DNA of 20,682 nucleotides from a virus: positions 1 to 20,682 of IMG/VR virus record IMGVR_UViG_3300040815_001170; one strand, given 5' to 3'. Made by a program: the position numbers and the translations under genes. Positions 1,974 to 11,284 of the stretch are shown one piece after another. The notes under the pieces are model-generated. The model did not search any database, was not told the DNA's origin, and saw only the letters and a program-made list of their open reading frames with translations. Numbering within the stretch: the first letter of the stretch is position 1; every line of letters begins with the position of its first letter.

Positions 1974-4900
1974 CTATGGCCCGATACCATACCAGTCTTG
2001 TCCGTCTTTAAGCGGGGCTAGTATGTCTTTTCTTGTTATTTTATTAGGAGGGTCAATAAGACCCTGATCTTTAGCTTCTTTAAGAAGCCTTTGGTAAGTT
2101 CTATAAGACATTCCTTGTCTGCGCATTTCTCTAAGGGTTTTTCTTATAGTATCGCCTTCTAGGGCATCTGCATAGATGGTCCTTAAAGCATCTTTTGCAC
2201 GTTTTGCTTCCCCTATATTAGTAAAGAAAGCATCGTGAATTGTTCCACTGTCTACGTTATTTTTACGCGCCCATAAATGAAAGCGCCTAACTATAACAGC
2301 ATCGTTACTGTGGTTTCCATTAACACCTAACCCAATTCTAGCATCATTAAGAGAGCCTTTACCTAAAAGCTTTCCGTCTTCAGCGCTAGATTCGTATATG
2401 TTAGATATTTTTCTGTTTGTAACCGGATCTCTAAATTCAATACGCTCTTGAATTTTAGGGCGGTATCTTTGTGTCATTATCTTGCCATCAAATGTAACCC
2501 ATGGAATATCAACCTTTTGAGTTTCTTCAACGTAAGCTTTAGCAACTTGTTTCCAATAGTTAATAAAGTTATCAGTAACAGGCGCTCTATCAGCAAGATT
2601 TTTAGACATAATTCTAGATATTTCTGAGAACTCTTTTGGTCCAATAATGCCTCTACGAGCATTAGTAAGCTTGTTAACAAAATCACCAACATCAGGGTGT
2701 ATGTCTTGAGCTTGTTTTAATAAGGTACGACCAACAGGTTCGTTTTTATTAATCAACTCTACAAGTTCACTTCTAAAACTTTTAAGTTCTTCTATTGTAC
2801 CTGTAGCACCTAGTCGTTCAGCTACTTTAATTTTACCGTCAACAACTCTAAGATTAGCACCTAAATTATCTTTAGTAACTGTTATGAAACCTTTTTCGTC
2901 AAGTACTTTAGACAGTTTATTAGCCACGTTAGCGGTTTTCGTAGCAGCTCCAGCACCATAAAATGATACCATGTTTTGAGCTTTGGCTGCTTTAGCAAGA
3001 TCTTCCCATGTAAGATTAGCATCTCTGAGTGCAGGTATTTTAAGAAATTCTGGGTCATTAACTGTATCCATTGCAACTAAGTCATAAAGACGATTTTTTT
3101 GAGTTGTAGCTAAAACATTTGAAGCTTGAGATACTGCTCGGTCTCCTGTAGAAAGCCCAATAATTTGAGCTCCACTAGATGAGGCATCGTTTTCAATCAT
3201 AAGTTTTGTTTTATAGCTAGTTATAGGTTTACCTTGTTTAAGGTGTTTATCAATACGAGCATATTCAATCGCCATCCTGCCCATTTTAGGTACTTCTGGA
3301 CCTTCTAGTCCTCGTATTAATGGATGTTCAAGGAACTCTCTAAGACGCCTGTCTCTTTGAGTTTTAGACATCATAATATTACCTAGTTCAATAATCTTAG
3401 CTTCATTACGATTAAATATAGCATTACGACCTGCTTGAGTAAGCGCTTCAGTTCCTGGACCTATTAAGGCTCCTATTTGAATTCTAAGCTCATCTAAAGC
3501 TTCATTACTCATGTTAACAGCTTTTCCTGAATTAAGGAAAGGTCTAACTAGCTCACCGCCCGTAGGTGTAAGATATCCTCTGTGATATACTCGCCCCCTA
3601 GAATCAATAAATGCTTGAGTCCTAAAGTTTTTCCCTCTTTGAGCATGATATTTAGCAGTAGACATAAATCCATAACCTTGTTCTCCTCGATTTAAAATTT
3701 CATGACGAAACTCATTAATACTGTCATAGTATTTAGATCGTCCTCTAGGATCCCTGAATCTAGCAATATCGTCCATAAACCCGAAGAACTCGTTATCAAC
3801 TCCATATTCAACCTCCATTACGTGATTAAGCATTTGAGCCATTTCACGATCAATTTGTTTAGGATCATAATCTGGAAATTTATCTCTAGAAATTAAAGGT
3901 ATTCCTGTATCATTACCTCTAGCGTCTACATAAGTTTTTTTATTTGCTTTTACATAAAGCCTATCTCTGTTATAAACAGTTCCAAGCCTTCTAGCAATAG
4001 TTACTTTACGTTCTGCTTCTTGAAGTTTAAGTAATGTTTTATCTACAACAATTACTTCTCTAGAAATACTATCAGCCCAACCACCAGACGCTCTACCTGT
4101 ATCTAAATCTAAAACACCTCTACGAGTTTTACCTCTAAATTGGACTTTAATAAGACCTTGGTCTACCATAAAGTCAAGTATTTTAGATCCTTCTTTATGA
4201 AAGTCTTGAAGAGTATGTTTAGTAAAGGGTATGACATTTTCAAAGTCTTTAGAAAATCTTTTTCCTATATTAATAGCTAAAGTATCATAATCGGTAGATT
4301 GTCCTGACGCTACTAACTTAGCAATATTAGTTAAACTATCTAAAGCTTTTTCATCAAACAACTTAGAAGTAGGTTTTTTATTTATAATTAAAAACTCAGC
4401 ATCTAAAAGCCTACGTATAGTTTCTCTGTTACGAGCAGCTAACTTAGTAATTAAAGAATCAGAAGGTTCAGTTGCTAGTTTTTGTAGTTTTAAAAGTTTG
4501 TCAAAACCAGAATCTTTTTTTAATTGTTTAATAAGTCTTTTTTTAGTAGGATACTTATCAGTAAACTTTTTAAAATAAACTCTTAGAGGTGCTCGACCTT
4601 TAAAAAACATTTTAGTAGCTAACTTTTTACCTTCAGTTCTGCGCCATGCATCAATAAATCTTTGATCTTTTAATTGGCTGTCAATTAAATTTTCAAAAGT
4701 ATAATACTTCCCCATAATTTGAACTTGAGGTTTGTCTTGAGATAAATAACTAACAAACATTTCAGAACGCTTACGGGATCGTGTATCTAACAGCCTAGAA
4801 ACGTTTTGTACAGCAAATCTATTTTCTGCCCTTAACACTGCAGCAACATCATTCCAAGGTTTTTTATCTTTTGCATAACGTTCAAATACAACTCTTAAGT

Positions 4901-6329
4901 TTTCAATTACAACAGTTTGTTGATTAACTGAAATCTTATCGTCTAATCCTGCTGCAATGCTTTCAATAAAATCTTTTTCATCTTGTTTGAGAAGCTTAGA
5001 GTTACGCATAAAATCAATACGTTCTTGATACAAATTAAAGTCAGGATCATAAATGTTATTATTTTTAATTTCACCTGTTAGTGGATCAGCACTAAAATTA
5101 CGTTCATCAAACTCATTACCCACCCTACGCCTAGAAGCAGTTTTACCTGCAAGGCTAGTACCTTTATAGTCTGTTAAAGACATGGTTTTAGAATAGTCAT
5201 CAGCATCAAGTAAAAACATTTGCCTTACTAAAGCTTTTTGTTCTGGTGAACGTATCATAGAACTAGGGCGTTTAGCTTGAATATCTACTGCTTGCTCTCT
5301 AAGCTTTTGCTTAGGTGCAAAAATAGCAGTAGCATTAGTAGCTTTATTTCTTAAAGCTTGAATAGACAGTGCTTTACCTTTAGGTGTAACATATTGCTCC
5401 GCTTTTAATTTGCCTTGCCTAAATAAATTAGCTTGATCCATGCCCCCAAGAAGTTTAGATTGGATATCAAACGCTTGGCGTTTTAACCATGCCCCGTAGG
5501 ATTCTACTTTAGGTGCAACACCTGAAAGCGATTCTTCTTTCTTTTTTGCAAGGTTTGTTTTATTAAGCCTACTTGTAGTTTCTTTCTGAAGTTCTTCTTT
5601 AGACTTTAAGACAGGCACCAAAGAACTACGGCAATTCCAATGCAAAGGAGGAGTAAAGCGTCTATCGCTAACATCGTAAATCTTTCCATTATGATAAGAA
5701 CAAATAGGACTAGTACGACTATCAAGCACAGCAGTAAAAACATAGCCTTTTACTACATGAGAGTTTGCTTCTACAACTTTGTTTAAGGCTGCAGTTTGAG
5801 TGCTTGTTATAGAGGTTCTAGTTAAAGTTCTAGCTTGATGCTCCGTAAGCTTAGTAGTTTTAAGAACGTTATTAATAATATCTTTAGGAGATTCACCTTT
5901 AGCAAGACCTGCTTTGACTTTAGATTGTATTCTAACGAGTTCACCTGCAGAAATGTTTTTAACATTTTGAGTAACTGTTTTAACACCTTTAATATTTTGT
6001 CCAGTTATTTCGGCAAGTAATTCTTTACTACGTGGCTTTGATACCTTATAGAATTTATTAAGTTCTTTGTTTAGATTGTCCGAATGAAAGTCCAGTTGAG
6101 ACGTTGAAAATTCTTTTAAAGAGCTAGTCTGATGAGTTAACATTTCTCGACCAAAACGATTTATTTCAGGAGTAACATCATTAGTTAATCTCTCTGACAA
6201 TATATCTCTAAGTCTTTTTCTATGCCTACGCATAATACGTTTATTTTGTAACTGAACACCTTCTTCGTATAATCTTACGTCAGTCATGTGATCGACAATA
6301 CGATCATAAAGTTTTAAATTGATATCCAT
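1974..6329 (-). CDS. MuF minor head protein fused to a single-subunit (T7/N4-type) RNA polymerase
   Basis: This 1451-residue protein (about 165 kDa) has two parts. Residues 1-330 are a full MuF-type minor head protein: a helical N-terminus, then the core 'LDSRTSP' (D203), 'PPLHWNCRSS' (C233), and a closing 'LFRQGKL' segment near 302-308 like that ending many MuF proteins. Residues ~345-1451 carry single-subunit RNA polymerase motifs in order: DxxGR at 909-913 (T7 421-425); motif A 'NDASSSGAQ' with D1048 (T7 D537); motif B with K1116 and Y1124-G1125 (T7 K631, Y639-G640); motif C 'IHDAFF' with H1365-D1366 (T7 H811-D812). The Arg equivalent to T7 R627 is absent (A1112, next to K1113). The polymerase part is ~1100 residues, close to the N4 mini-vRNAP domain, and the long gap between motifs B and C is also N4-like. 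It starts at ATG 6329 behind GGAG and lies between portal and scaffold genes. Inferred role: a capsid-packaged polymerase attached near the portal, transcribing DNA on entry. No frameshift is seen. Confidence 0.9.
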   Translation of the reverse strand: MDINLKLYDRIVDHMTDVRLYEEGVQLQNKRIMRRHRKRLRDILSERLTNDVTPEINRFGREMLTHQTSSLKEFSTSQLDFHSDNLNKELNKFYKVSKPRSKELLAEITGQNIKGVKTVTQNVKNISAGELVRIQSKVKAGLAKGESPKDIINNVLKTTKLTEHQARTLTRTSITSTQTAALNKVVEANSHVVKGYVFTAVLDSRTSPICSYHNGKIYDVSDRRFTPPLHWNCRSSLVPVLKSKEELQKETTSRLNKTNLAKKKEESLSGVAPKVESYGAWLKRQAFDIQSKLLGGMDQANLFRQGKLKAEQYVTPKGKALSIQALRNKATNATAIFAPKQKLREQAVDIQAKRPSSMIRSPEQKALVRQMFLLDADDYSKTMSLTDYKGTSLAGKTASRRRVGNEFDERNFSADPLTGEIKNNNIYDPDFNLYQERIDFMRNSKLLKQDEKDFIESIAAGLDDKISVNQQTVVIENLRVVFERYAKDKKPWNDVAAVLRAENRFAVQNVSRLLDTRSRKRSEMFVSYLSQDKPQVQIMGKYYTFENLIDSQLKDQRFIDAWRRTEGKKLATKMFFKGRAPLRVYFKKFTDKYPTKKRLIKQLKKDSGFDKLLKLQKLATEPSDSLITKLAARNRETIRRLLDAEFLIINKKPTSKLFDEKALDSLTNIAKLVASGQSTDYDTLAINIGKRFSKDFENVIPFTKHTLQDFHKEGSKILDFMVDQGLIKVQFRGKTRRGVLDLDTGRASGGWADSISREVIVVDKTLLKLQEAERKVTIARRLGTVYNRDRLYVKANKKTYVDARGNDTGIPLISRDKFPDYDPKQIDREMAQMLNHVMEVEYGVDNEFFGFMDDIARFRDPRGRSKYYDSINEFRHEILNRGEQGYGFMSTAKYHAQRGKNFRTQAFIDSRGRVYHRGYLTPTGGELVRPFLNSGKAVNMSNEALDELRIQIGALIGPGTEALTQAGRNAIFNRNEAKIIELGNIMMSKTQRDRRLREFLEHPLIRGLEGPEVPKMGRMAIEYARIDKHLKQGKPITSYKTKLMIENDASSSGAQIIGLSTGDRAVSQASNVLATTQKNRLYDLVAMDTVNDPEFLKIPALRDANLTWEDLAKAAKAQNMVSFYGAGAATKTANVANKLSKVLDEKGFITVTKDNLGANLRVVDGKIKVAERLGATGTIEELKSFRSELVELINKNEPVGRTLLKQAQDIHPDVGDFVNKLTNARRGIIGPKEFSEISRIMSKNLADRAPVTDNFINYWKQVAKAYVEETQKVDIPWVTFDGKIMTQRYRPKIQERIEFRDPVTNRKISNIYESSAEDGKLLGKGSLNDARIGLGVNGNHSNDAVIVRRFHLWARKNNVDSGTIHDAFFTNIGEAKRAKDALRTIYADALEGDTIRKTLREMRRQGMSYRTYQRLLKEAKDQGLIDPPNKITRKDILAPLKDGQDWYGIGP

Positions 6330-8410: not shown

Positions 8411-8429
8411 TTCTTAAACGTCAGGTATT
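8411..8429 (-). repeat. 19-base direct repeat, copy 1, touching the holin stop codon
   Basis: Identical to 8319-8337 on the minus strand (AATACCTGACGTTTAAGAA). Its first base is the last A of the holin TAA stop. Together the two copies bracket the pair of hairpins. They may be duplicated promoter-like or protein-binding sites, or the scar of a local duplication or cassette exchange. Confidence 0.75.
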
Positions 8430-8782
8430 TACTTTTTGCCAAAAAACTTACTAACGCCTCGCATACCAATGCTAGCACTAACAATACCTCCAAGAGAATA
8501 TTGATACCACGCTGGCATAGCTTCAAGGGCTGCAAAGCCTTGAGCAACAATAACATTACCCCAGTCACCACAAAAAGCTAAAATTAAAGGTATTGAAAAT
8601 AATAAAGTTATCCACTCGTCTTTCCATGAGTTTTGAGTAGCTTTAATTGCTTCAATATCCCAATCAATTTCACCTGTAGCTTGTTTAACTTTAATTTCTG
8701 CATTGGCTTTTTGTACAGCTACTTTACCATCTACCCACGTAGACGCTAAGCTACCTACAGCACCTATAATTTGACCTATCAT
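8429..8782 (-). CDS. Holin, three-helix (GTA-like) type
   Basis: This is a 117-residue membrane protein. It has a Gly/Ala-rich hydrophobic N-terminus (1-16), a charged helical segment (22-50), a clear membrane helix 'WITLLFSIPLILAFCG' (about 57-72) and a C-terminal hydrophobic stretch 'YSLGGIVSASIGMRG' (about 95-109), ending in a basic tail. The pattern 'SWKDEW.....IPLIL..........GF..L...P.WYQ....GIV.AS.G.RG' matches the three-membrane-segment holin family named for gene-transfer-agent release. Its ATG overlaps the endolysin stop (ATGA), so the two genes are translationally coupled. Inferred role: permeabilise the inner membrane at the end of infection so the endolysin reaches the wall. Confidence 0.8.
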   Translation of the reverse strand: MIGQIIGAVGSLASTWVDGKVAVQKANAEIKVKQATGEIDWDIEAIKATQNSWKDEWITLLFSIPLILAFCGDWGNVIVAQGFAALEAMPAWYQYSLGGIVSASIGMRGVSKFFGKK

Positions 8783-9234
8783 GAGGCTAACTCAAAGTGA
8801 GGTCCATCAATAAATGGACGTCTGTTTTGTGATCTTCGAGTATCAATGTAAGACATCATAGCAGCCTCTGCTGTACCTTTCCAATCACGGATATCAGGAA
8901 TATGCCAAGCAGCCCCCCAACGTATTGGAACACCTTCTGCAATAGCAGCCTCTTTCATGGCGTCTGCAAGATCATCATAAACATTTAGCTCCCAACAACC
9001 TTTACCGTCTACATAGGCCATAAGGTCTACAGCGTTACCGTCAAGATGTTTTGATTTTAAAGTTTGAGACTTACCTGCCGCTACTAATTTCTTTTGTTCT
9101 TCAAGTGTCCTAAGCCCGTACACAACACCAAAGTCTACTTTAGTAATTTGAATAGCCTTATGCACTACGTTAACCAAGTTATGATTAACGCCTTCTAACT
9201 TGTCTAATGATCTTTTTGAGAGTTTAAAAGACAT
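8779..9234 (-). CDS. Endolysin, M15-family L-Ala-D-Glu-type peptidase
   Basis: This 151-residue protein has the zinc-site pattern of phage T5-type peptidoglycan peptidases: 'YGLRTLEEQ..L.A.G' (about 39-54), 'SKHLDGNAVDL' giving ligands H63 and D70, and 'DGPHFEL' near the C-terminus giving catalytic-type D143 and ligand H146. In the T5 enzyme the corresponding set is H66, D73, D130 and H133. Between them is a longer insert of about 35 residues including 'RWGAAWHIPDIRDWKG'. There is no signal peptide, so it needs a holin. The start is unambiguous behind TAGGAGATAAAATG. It most likely cuts the peptide stems of Gram-negative peptidoglycan. All expected metal ligands are present. Confidence 0.92.
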   Translation of the reverse strand: MSFKLSKRSLDKLEGVNHNLVNVVHKAIQITKVDFGVVYGLRTLEEQKKLVAAGKSQTLKSKHLDGNAVDLMAYVDGKGCWELNVYDDLADAMKEAAIAEGVPIRWGAAWHIPDIRDWKGTAEAAMMSYIDTRRSQNRRPFIDGPHFELAS

Positions 9235-9242
9235 TTTATCTC

Positions 9243-9497
9243 CTATTTTGTTCCGAACTTACGGATGTAAGAGGGATCTTCATCGTAAGCTTCAGACCAT
9301 TTGTTTTCTGTAAAAGTAGCAAAATCAATTAAGTCATTACTGTCTATAATTAATACTTCAATTTCTTGCTGCATAACTTTTACTTGTGATCCTAAGTCTT
9401 GAATTGTGTGGGCTTGCTTAGAAACCCACCATACTCCTGCTGCTAATTGAATAGCCATTGCAAATACTAGTGCAACAGGAAGTTTTAAATCATTCAT
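9243..9497 (-). CDS. Inner-membrane spanin-like (Rz-type) protein
   Basis: This is an 84-residue protein. I chose the ATG at 9497, immediately after the stop of the previous gene and behind AAAGAGAAAT. The open frame extends further upstream, but that would overlap the previous gene. It has one N-terminal membrane helix (about 5-25, 'LPVALVFAMAIQLAAGVWWV') and then a polar helical region (27-50) with coiled-coil character and an acidic C-terminus. That matches inner-membrane spanins, which disrupt the outer membrane together with a lipoprotein partner. It sits between a holin-like gene and the endolysin. I found no embedded lipoprotein (o-spanin) frame, so the partner is missing or elsewhere. 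Family identity is inferred from architecture and context. Confidence 0.6.
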   Translation of the reverse strand: MNDLKLPVALVFAMAIQLAAGVWWVSKQAHTIQDLGSQVKVMQQEIEVLIIDSNDLIDFATFTENKWSEAYDEDPSYIRKFGTK

Positions 9498-9498
9498 A

Positions 9499-9711
9499 TT
9501 ATTTCTCTTTATGCTTTTCATTACCAAGCCATACAGCAAAGCAGCCTGTTAGTGCGCCCATGCACACTGAAACTAAGCCACTCTGTTGTACTGTAGGATC
9601 TGGCAATGACATATACCAATGTACTGATTGATAAGTTAAAACTGTAACAGCTAACATCATTAAACGAGGCATAATTTGCCACTGTAAAATTCTTTCCATT
9701 GCTATTGTCAT
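9499..9711 (-). CDS. Two-helix membrane protein, possible holin or antiholin
   Basis: This 70-residue protein has two predicted membrane segments: about 12-33 ('IMPRLMMLAVTVLTYQSV..') and about 44-62 ('GLVSVCMGALTGCFAVWLG'), joined by a short loop 'SLPDPTVQQS' and followed by a basic tail (NEKHKEK). Similar small proteins starting 'MERILQWQIMPRLMML' occur in marine phages. The layout fits a class II holin. Its ATG overlaps the stop of the 33-codon gene (ATGA). With a separate three-helix holin after the endolysin, one of the two may be an antiholin. A start at the internal ATG (codon 5) is possible. Confidence 0.65.
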   Translation of the reverse strand: MTIAMERILQWQIMPRLMMLAVTVLTYQSVHWYMSLPDPTVQQSGLVSVCMGALTGCFAVWLGNEKHKEK

Positions 9712-9809
9712 TTATTACTCCATTTATCTATCATCTTCTCCGAATCAGGGATGACCTTGTTTAGGACATCCCCTAGGATCGGTGCTAACACGCTCATTAA
9801 CTGTAGCAT
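9708..9809 (-). CDS. 33-residue micro-gene at the head of the lysis cassette
   Basis: A short frame starts at ATG 9809 with AAGGAA eight bases upstream, and its TGA overlaps the next gene's ATG (ATGA at 9711-9708). These two signals make it a real gene despite its size. The peptide begins MLQLMSVLAPILGDVLNKV and continues with IPDSEK and a basic, Trp-containing tail. Residues 3-20 form an amphipathic or hydrophobic helix. The phrase 'NKVIPD' resembles a segment in some three-helix holins. It could be a small membrane-active lysis peptide, a holin regulator, or a leader whose translation couples the lysis genes. No function is claimed. Confidence 0.65.
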   Translation of the reverse strand: MLQLMSVLAPILGDVLNKVIPDSEKMIDKWSNK

Positions 9810-9830
9810 ATTACTGTTCCTTATTTTTAT

Positions 9831-10817
9831 TTATGCGAAATCTGCAATCAGGTATGTTCCTGGATTTGAGTGGTAATGCGGGTAAGCTGTACTGCTACCT
9901 CCCGCTTTGTGTTTATAGCGAGTGCAAGTTATTTTTAGGTTGTCTACACCGTTTATTCGCTCAATCTGAAAACGAGGAAAAAACCAAGTAGTACCACCTC
10001 CAAAAAGACGCTTTGCGCTTGAGCTAGTATCTCCACCAATATATGGATTTGAGACATTCTGTCGCAGAGGATAAAGCTTAGTAACATTGTTCTGAAGCAC
10101 ATCATCAATGTCTGATTGTGGGACATATATGTGGTCTTTGATACGCACAGCTTTCTCTACATAACGACTGTCATAGATTGTGTTGTTGCTACCGTCTTGT
10201 ACCTTGATACCATAACTACCAGAGACTGCAGGAGGAGTAGTACCAACTACTTTATATTCTTGACCTTCTCCATCTTGCCACCAACCCTGACACCAAGCGG
10301 TAAGACCTTTGGCACTAGCATCGTGCCAGTTGAAGGGATTATAGACACTACCAAAGTGGTGAAGACCGTTGGGATTTATTTTGAAGAACACCTCATAGAA
10401 ATTTGAGGGTGTAACTCCAATGGTGTTCGGAATAGCCTTGGGCATGTCATTACCGTAAACGGTGTCTAGACTTAGCCCACTCAGGTCAGTTGCGGTGCTC
10501 CACTGCATTAGATGACTGCGTTCCGGAGAACCATGACCGTTTACGCCAAGCGACCAGCTACCAAGGTCAACCCCCGCAAAAGTCTGATAGTAAACTCTTG
10601 GGCTGCCGTAAGGACTTGTATTACCAGAAACACCAAACTCGTGGTTGTCGTTGATACCTAACGCAATGGTCATCACGCACGTATAACGCCCATCGTGGTT
10701 CATGTGATTATACACATCAGTCCAGTTCATAGTTCCACTTGATTTCTCAAAGAACAAACCTGAGCTACGGAGAACATTCTCTCCGTAGTCATTGATAAAT
10801 TCTACACCATAACTCAT
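9831..10817 (-). CDS. Tail-tip associated protein, larger paralogue
   Basis: This is a 328-residue protein. I start it at ATG 10817, which overlaps the upstream stop as TAATG and has GGAG eight bases before it. A GTG nine bases upstream is in frame but less likely. The first residues, 'MSYGVEFINDYGENVL', parallel 'MSYGFEIKNSNNQVIL' of the next gene upstream, so the two share an N-terminal module that probably anchors them to the tail tip. The rest is beta-rich with many aromatic, Gly and Asn residues. It repeats the phrase 'FGVSGNTSPYG...' and ends in a His/Tyr-rich 'YKHKAGGSSTAYPHYHSN' (about 302-319), which could bind metal or carbohydrate. Probably a distal receptor-binding or accessory fibre protein. 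I do not recognise a named family. Confidence 0.7.
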   Translation of the reverse strand: MSYGVEFINDYGENVLRSSGLFFEKSSGTMNWTDVYNHMNHDGRYTCVMTIALGINDNHEFGVSGNTSPYGSPRVYYQTFAGVDLGSWSLGVNGHGSPERSHLMQWSTATDLSGLSLDTVYGNDMPKAIPNTIGVTPSNFYEVFFKINPNGLHHFGSVYNPFNWHDASAKGLTAWCQGWWQDGEGQEYKVVGTTPPAVSGSYGIKVQDGSNNTIYDSRYVEKAVRIKDHIYVPQSDIDDVLQNNVTKLYPLRQNVSNPYIGGDTSSSAKRLFGGGTTWFFPRFQIERINGVDNLKITCTRYKHKAGGSSTAYPHYHSNPGTYLIADFA

Positions 10818-11284
10818 TACGCCCACTCCAAGAAAACTACTTCACTGTTTCCAAAGTCGTAGCTCGCCCTACTTGTAGAATAGTGTTCTGAGTTCATTGG
10901 ACCTGGATGGGTAAAAGTCATTTGTTTAGTGCTGTTGTTCCAAGCAAGGGTAGGCGTCCACATAGCACCTGCGCCACCAAATCTACGAGGGCTGGTGTGG
11001 AAGTTGTGGTTTGCATTAGTTACGCTATCTAAAACATTTGGAGTAATTCCCAAGTGCTCATAGTCTTTAGTGCTCATGTGCGCTCTTACGTAGTAGCTAC
11101 CTCGTGTGCTATCAAAGTTTGGTACCGAGAAAATGTAAGGGGTGTTTGTATGGGTAGTATAGAAGCTACCAGCGATACAAGCACTGTACGCCACATACTC
11201 TACGTGAATGACACGCATAGTAGTATCCGAATTGTCTAGAATAACTTGATTGTTTGAATTTTTTATTTCAAATCCGTAAGACAT
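10817..11284 (-). CDS. Tail-tip associated protein, smaller paralogue
   Basis: This 155-residue protein lies directly downstream of the J-like tip gene, separated by two bases. It opens 'MSYGFEIKNSNNQVILDNSD', the same pattern as its downstream neighbour. It is beta-rich with aromatic and His residues, has no signal peptide, and has 'RRFGGAGAMWTPTLAWNNSTKQMTFTH' near residues 100-126, a surface-exposed beta-sheet style. Small proteins with this opening commonly follow the host-specificity protein in marine phages, where they may cap the tip or bind receptors. Its stop overlaps the next start (TAATG), so the pair is co-translated. Function is inferred from position. Confidence 0.7.
   Translation of the reverse strand: MSYGFEIKNSNNQVILDNSDTTMRVIHVEYVAYSACIAGSFYTTHTNTPYIFSVPNFDSTRGSYYVRAHMSTKDYEHLGITPNVLDSVTNANHNFHTSPRRFGGAGAMWTPTLAWNNSTKQMTFTHPGPMNSEHYSTSRASYDFGNSEVVFLEWA

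Follow-up and report, generated by a model that had tools for sequence, protein, structure and literature searches.

A 33-codon open reading frame at the head of a viral lysis cassette is probably the relic of an internally deleted PF11351 holin gene

The window considered here is the whole of a 20,682-base virus record. Its minus-strand gene order begins with what we take to be a PhoH-like protein and tail genes, putative names given from reading the sequence, and runs through a putative tail protein of 1274 aa, proteins of 155 aa and 331 aa, a 33-codon open reading frame (ORF), proteins of 70 aa and 83 aa and an M15-type endolysin. Past the endolysin lie proteins of 117 aa and 95 aa, then one of 523 aa at the position of the portal, and finally a MuF-type head protein of 1451 aa. 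The 33-codon ORF fills the 119-nt gap between the stop of the 331-aa tail-region protein and the 70-aa ORF. The genes and signals around it are as follows.

9831 to 10814, minus strand: tail-region protein of 327 aa (331 with a GTG start), upstream of the 33-codon ORF; relative in contig L380
9818 to 9822, minus strand: AAGGA, Shine-Dalgarno sequence of the 33-codon ORF, ending 8 nt before its ATG
9708 to 9809, minus strand, stop included: 33-codon ORF, read from sequence and homology as an internally deleted 3TM holin gene (relic)
9718 to 9721, minus strand: GGAG, Shine-Dalgarno sequence of the 70-aa gene, within the last codons of the 33-codon ORF; leader in 3 of the 7 nearest relatives
9499 to 9711, minus strand: 70-aa membrane-type protein (phrog_10198; sequence and family match), ATGA-coupled to the 33-codon ORF
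9243 to 9494, minus strand: 83-aa protein with one N-terminal hydrophobic segment (family scan and hydropathy)
8779 to 9234, minus strand: M15-type peptidase endolysin (family matches: phrog_465, E 4e-53; PF13539)
8429 to 8782, minus strand: 117-aa membrane protein (phrog_2524), candidate replacement holin (family, profile comparison and model)

The ORF runs from 9809 down to 9708 and would encode the peptide MLQLMSVLAPILGDVLNKVIPDSEKMIDKWSNK. A preliminary description of this DNA had reported a good ribosome-binding site and an ATGA overlap with the 70-aa gene, and had placed the ORF at the head of a lysis cassette. All of these features are present, with an ATG start and the AAGGA site, the TGA of the ORF overlapping the ATG of the 70-aa ORF at 9711-9708, and the 70-aa, 83-aa, M15-type endolysin and 117-aa genes come next. 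The same description called the peptide hydrophobic or amphipathic, which is fair for residues 1-20, and amphipathic stretches are indeed present, but no 19-residue segment reaches the cut-off for a hydrophobic segment (19-residue window of at least 1.6 on the Kyte-Doolittle scale), the maximum being 1.43. When the 119-nt gap preceding the 70-aa gene was subjected to 5,000 dinucleotide shuffles, an ATG-initiated ORF of at least 33 codons appeared in 88 and one with an SD-like 4-mer as well in 3, so the frame is unlikely to have arisen by chance; homology, described below, settles the matter. The G+C content near the ORF (0.37-0.40) is uninformative. HMMER comparison of the 33 residues with Pfam and PHROGs returned 0 families up to E 10; PF11351 has no match anywhere in the window, and the 33 residues do not pass the curated Pfam cut-off. 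A single weak NCBIfam match (E 0.15) was taken as chance.

Full-length PF11351 holins of 130-133 aa occupy the slot of the 33-codon ORF in 10 viral contigs, where they fall into four types (L374-L379 plus L381 as one type, with the L381 copy cut by the contig end, and L380, L388 and L389). Gene order in these 10 contigs matches that of the window as far as each stretch reaches, while in six others (L382-L387) it differs or is not fully seen. The PF11351 cut-off was passed by phage C72C1 and by six contigs, among them those of L258, L380, L388 and L389; the 130-aa protein in the equivalent slot of L258 matches this family with an E value of 9e-17, and phrog_3427, labelled 'holin', is matched by the proteins of L388 (E 1e-31) and L380 (E 7e-30). 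A search with the 33 residues and the L258 holin aligned gave 23 loci, 16 of them close (58-100%) and 7 distant (34-36%).

The evidence linking the short ORF to these proteins comes from its two ends. The L388 holin has 131 residues and ends in ...GEKMIDKWSNK; when the 33 residues are read as its head followed by its tail, 28/33 are identical, with the best cut after residue 23, while the maximum in 20,000 shuffles of this head and tail comparison was 12 identities. L388 residues 24-121, equivalent to 98 codons, are missing from the window in frame. The ORF can accordingly be divided into three parts.

9741 to 9809, minus strand: codons 1-23, from the holin N-terminus; 18/23 identical to L388
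9735 to 9746, minus strand: deletion junction region (codons 22-25), where 98 L388 codons are missing; the break point may be off by a few codons
9711 to 9740, minus strand: codons 24-33 (EKMIDKWSNK), from the holin C-terminus; 10/10 identical to the last 10 residues of the L388 holin

The junction was placed by this two-end count, which we preferred to the different position given by MAFFT. The L258 holin behaves in the same way in BLASTP, with residues 1-28 of the peptide aligned to its residues 1-28 (15/28, E 2e-9) and residues 23-32 aligned to residues 121-130 at its very end (7/10, E 7e-4). The peptide thus carries the N-terminal segment LAPI.GD...K.IPD of the PF11351 members in the group (15/28 with L258, 18/23 with L388), and the C-terminal tail of a PF11351 subgroup, GRSGEK...KW, is represented by the EKMIDKWSNK shared with L388. 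A pattern drawn from the middle of the peptide, GD..[ND]K.[IF]PD, matched 41 viral stretches, of which 35 are by reading the N-termini of holin-like proteins (two cut by contig ends, and one, L284, longer than the others) and 6 are unrelated. A profile of C72C1-type holins alone scored the 33 residues at 5.6 bits, compared with 6.1 for the best of 906 scored shuffles, and 111 of 6,462 scored ORF starts, many of them holins, reached the score of the peptide; since this score is about that of the best shuffles, that test alone gave the holin link no support, which came instead from the closer full-length relatives. On the strength of the two-ended match, the ORF almost certainly originates from an internally deleted holin gene of PF11351 (GTA_holin_3TM, phrog_3427) and is not a new kind of gene.

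Gene order points in the same direction. L258 and its kin are collinear with the window, with identities of 73% for the portal-position protein, 64% for the head protein (over the part held), 47% for the tail protein and 45% for the endolysin. Earlier searches of viral contigs and phages had given no relative of the window's 331-aa protein, and only L380 later did: a 23%-identical relative (311 aa, E 4e-10) lies directly upstream of its holin, and the leader before the L380 holin start shares AAAATAAGGAA with the leader in the window, so that, together with the lysis-side neighbors, both sides of the slot are matched. For the 155-aa protein, a single weak match (E 0.7) was obtained among phages. 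An ATGA junction is also found in L388, where the stop of the full-length holin overlaps the endolysin start; because the same junction follows a full-length holin there, the coupling in the window was probably inherited. Thus the relic has its N-terminal segment, C-terminal tail and slot after the tail genes in common with the PF11351/phrog_3427 holins of L388, L380, L374 and L389 from IMG/VR, and with that of L388 also the ATGA coupling to the next lysis gene. It differs from the full-length holins in lacking 98 inner codons, including the predicted membrane-spanning part, and in having no Pfam or PHROG match of its own.

Two of the neighboring genes have distinctive features of their own. 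In the 1451-aa ORF (1974-6329, minus strand), a MuF head-morphogenesis domain (PF04233) is fused with a region resembling single-subunit RNA polymerases (PF00940 at 1034-1415, E 4e-7; phrog_414, E 6e-24), and this long fusion is kept in relatives (L270, 68% over residues 3-1127). Residues 810-1451 had no solved-structure match by sequence, and the fusion may represent a polymerase that enters the cell attached to the head protein. The 70-aa protein has relatives in 358 phage records, 348 of which are Vibrio phages; among the 20 such records listed are 250-kb genomes, and the match falls under unnamed proteins in nearly all. In Puniceispirillum phage HMO-2011 (L244, 46023-46223), the stretch matching the 70-aa protein has one in-frame TGA and is annotated only as a shorter CDS.

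The sequence at the junction suggests how the deletion came about. The window reads GGAGAAG (9741-9735); the corresponding heptamers of L388 are GGACAAG where the first break falls and GGAAAAG where the second does, and the deletion likely arose at this short, imperfect 7-bp repeat. The part lost is the one expected to sit in the membrane: the hydrophobic segments of seven full-length parents, scored on the Kyte-Doolittle scale, lie at residues 61-102, within the missing part, with one extra segment at 3-21 in the L380 holin, and the membrane-spanning segments of the family (three by the name GTA_holin_3TM) are not found in the 33 residues. A model of the L388 holin, of low to middling confidence (pLDDT 72), has helices at 2-19, 23-57, 61-91 and 102-129, and the relic would retain about the first of these plus the last ten residues. 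Foldseek gave this model no match at E 0.001 or better; its second row was named 3TM holin (E 0.097). In the 18 N-terminal codons compared, 2 amino-acid and 8 silent changes separate the window from L388. Amino-acid changes number 2 to 7 when the window is set against the seven full-length genes and 0 to 5 when these are paired with one another; the excess is against L380 alone and is too small to separate decay from constraint. Most of the N-terminal divergence from L388 may predate the deletion.

The 70-aa gene is found at 91-99% identity in seven contigs (L162, L163, L081, L082, L083, L084 and L085), and in L162 both the endolysin and the 117-aa protein are 100% identical to those of the window. 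In these seven, the nearest relatives found, the 33-codon ORF is absent before the 70-aa gene (7/7) and the downstream genes are intact; the preceding gene encodes a protein of 289, 100, 283, 283, 130 or 131 aa, the 100-aa one perhaps truncated where its contig ends, or else a long tail-type protein. The preliminary description had named a frame broken in close relatives beside intact flanking genes as the pattern that would tell against it. The relatives largely conform to this pattern, except that their upstream flank has also been replaced, so that the frame is missing altogether and not disrupted in place. The leader of the 70-aa gene, GGAGTAATA(A/G)ATG, is kept in 3 of the 7, and since this DNA also encodes the last codons of the 33-codon ORF, the 3' end of the ORF looks conserved while the ORF itself is not; a scan for the conserved leader gave 5 matches, namely 3 relatives without the ORF and 2 unrelated ones. 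As a separate observation, the region that separates the 70-aa gene from the long tail protein (9712-11284) looks like a swap site, the same seven contigs (L162, L163 and L081-L085) having near-identical lysis genes with other proteins at the equivalent position.

Wider searches for other copies of the ORF gave a similar picture. In tblastn up to E 10, the 33 residues matched none of 50,697 phage records; none of the 35 holin-type pattern matches was a stand-alone short copy (two of them being cut by contig ends); and across 161 loci the ORF preceded no 70-aa homologue among the matches listed, the window's own locus excepted. In 247 loci searched by tblastn up to E 1, the other matches were limited to L189 (E 0.64, a holin N-terminus) and L021 (E 0.64, with stop codons). 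A second contig with the same deletion was not found in the viral contigs searched. A joined-motif scan of prokaryote genomes gave 3 proteins, all unrelated.

If the old holin has been lost, another protein may serve in its place, and the 117-aa protein is the likely working holin. Across 17 records searched whole, an author-chosen set with many fragments that gives a pattern rather than a census, a PF11351 holin was present in 7 and the 117-aa protein in the other 10, so that every record had exactly one of the two. The 70-aa protein occurs in 11 of the 17, once alongside a PF11351 holin (phage C72C1). Profile comparison aligned an N-terminal module of the 117-aa family with that of PF11351 holins (34 columns, probability 82%, E 1.1e-5), and a low-confidence model of the 117-aa protein (pLDDT 64) has three helices in its second half. 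The family itself, phrog_2524 ('unknown function'), has the look of a holin family that has escaped annotation and is mutually exclusive with PF11351 holins in 17/17 records.

Taken together, we assign a probability of roughly 0.8 to the reading that the 33-codon ORF is a PF11351 holin relic produced by internal deletion, whose remaining role, if any, is cis coupling to the 70-aa gene. Comparison shows that an in-frame deletion of 98 codons, covering the long second helix together with the predicted membrane-spanning part, brought codons 1-23 next to the final 10, and that the start signal, first helix, tail, stop and ATGA overlap survive. The old holin could have become dispensable because its role passed to the 117-aa protein, perhaps acting with the 70-aa protein. 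The relic's product would then no longer make holes, and the 33-residue peptide is very probably without holin activity. Ribosomes would start at the relic's Shine-Dalgarno sequence, make the peptide, terminate at the TGA and reinitiate on the 70-aa gene, whose ATG overlaps this stop, perhaps with the aid of the GGAG in the relic's last codons. We lean towards such cis coupling as the only role left to it. Of the two functions proposed in the preliminary description, the translational coupler is therefore plausible, the ATGA junction already following the full-length holin of L388. The membrane-active lysis timer is not supported, as the parent's predicted membrane-spanning part is missing and no other stand-alone short copy was found; the link to lysis stands by descent, both peptide ends coming from a PF11351 holin. 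Counted against the relic reading are the single contig with the deletion, the intact frame and the mostly silent N-terminal differences, as expected of a selected peptide, along with the failure of the 33 residues to match a Pfam or PHROG family and their weak score against the profile of C72C1-type holins.

In the best surviving alternative, the 33 residues still serve as a regulator, such as an antiholin-like amphipathic peptide tuning lysis time through binding to the membrane face or to the replacement holin's N-terminal helix. The intact frame, Shine-Dalgarno sequence and stop, the amphipathic stretches and the N-terminal module that the 117-aa family has in common with PF11351 holins would all suit such a role, and antiholins often lie near or inside holin genes, according to the ICP1 study (PMC7182436). 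We nevertheless consider it unlikely, given that other stand-alone copies number 0/35 among the pattern matches and 0/7 among the nearest relatives, with none in the phage collection, and that selection cannot be shown from one sequence. Its more specific form, a holin cut to its amphipathic N-terminal helix and charged tail and kept as a 33-residue soluble regulator of the 117-aa holin, strikes us as quite unlikely. An assembly or sampling artefact, with a full-length holin in the real phage, would fit a single uncultivated contig with no second copy found. The break, however, lies at an imperfect repeat of just 7 bp or so, and assembler words are usually much longer; the joined frame is exact, and the window has the 117-aa protein, which never occurred with a PF11351 holin in 17/17 records, making this explanation highly improbable. 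A novel small gene of independent origin, membrane-active or a lysis timer, as the Shine-Dalgarno sequence, overlap and amphipathic opening might suggest, is scarcely credible and is refuted by the two-ended homology, 28/33 residues being those found at the ends of a known holin that occupies this slot. Finally, a chance ORF across the leader of the 70-aa gene would explain why its last codons coincide with that leader (GGAGTAATAAATG), kept in three relatives without the ORF, but has a negligible probability, an ORF with an SD-like 4-mer arising in only 3/5,000 shuffles and the match of the peptide to a holin at both ends refuting it.

The preferred reading, that of a holin relic, can be set beside what has been published on related systems. 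In the ICP1 work, TeaA is a PF11351 holin with tested holin activity, its expression lowering the proton-motive-force signal and lysing cells, and ArrA is an antiholin, as shown by plaque and lysis phenotypes (PMC7182436). TeaA belongs to the family of the relic's parent gene and differs from the relic, which is without a predicted membrane segment. Antiholins such as ArrA resemble the 33-residue peptide in being small and are thought to act beside holins, whereas the peptide is known from sequence alone. As reported in another study, the membrane segment of one Bacillus phage holin was by itself insufficient for toxicity and both ends were needed (PMC9327680), and holin and endolysin genes were noted in most CRP-822-type roseophages (PMC12629253). 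We found no published holin relic in the open-licence PMC literature, as covered by titles and the starts of abstracts.

The locus looks like a holin replacement caught part-way, in which the ends and coupling signal of the old gene remain and another membrane protein is present in the cassette. It illustrates that a good ribosome-binding site and an overlap with the downstream gene do not prevent a short ORF from being a relic, an origin that emerges only from comparing both of its ends with full-length relatives. Should the peptide be functional, it would offer a simple model for an antiholin arising from a holin; were the regulator reading true, a dead lysis timer would have become the brake of its replacement.
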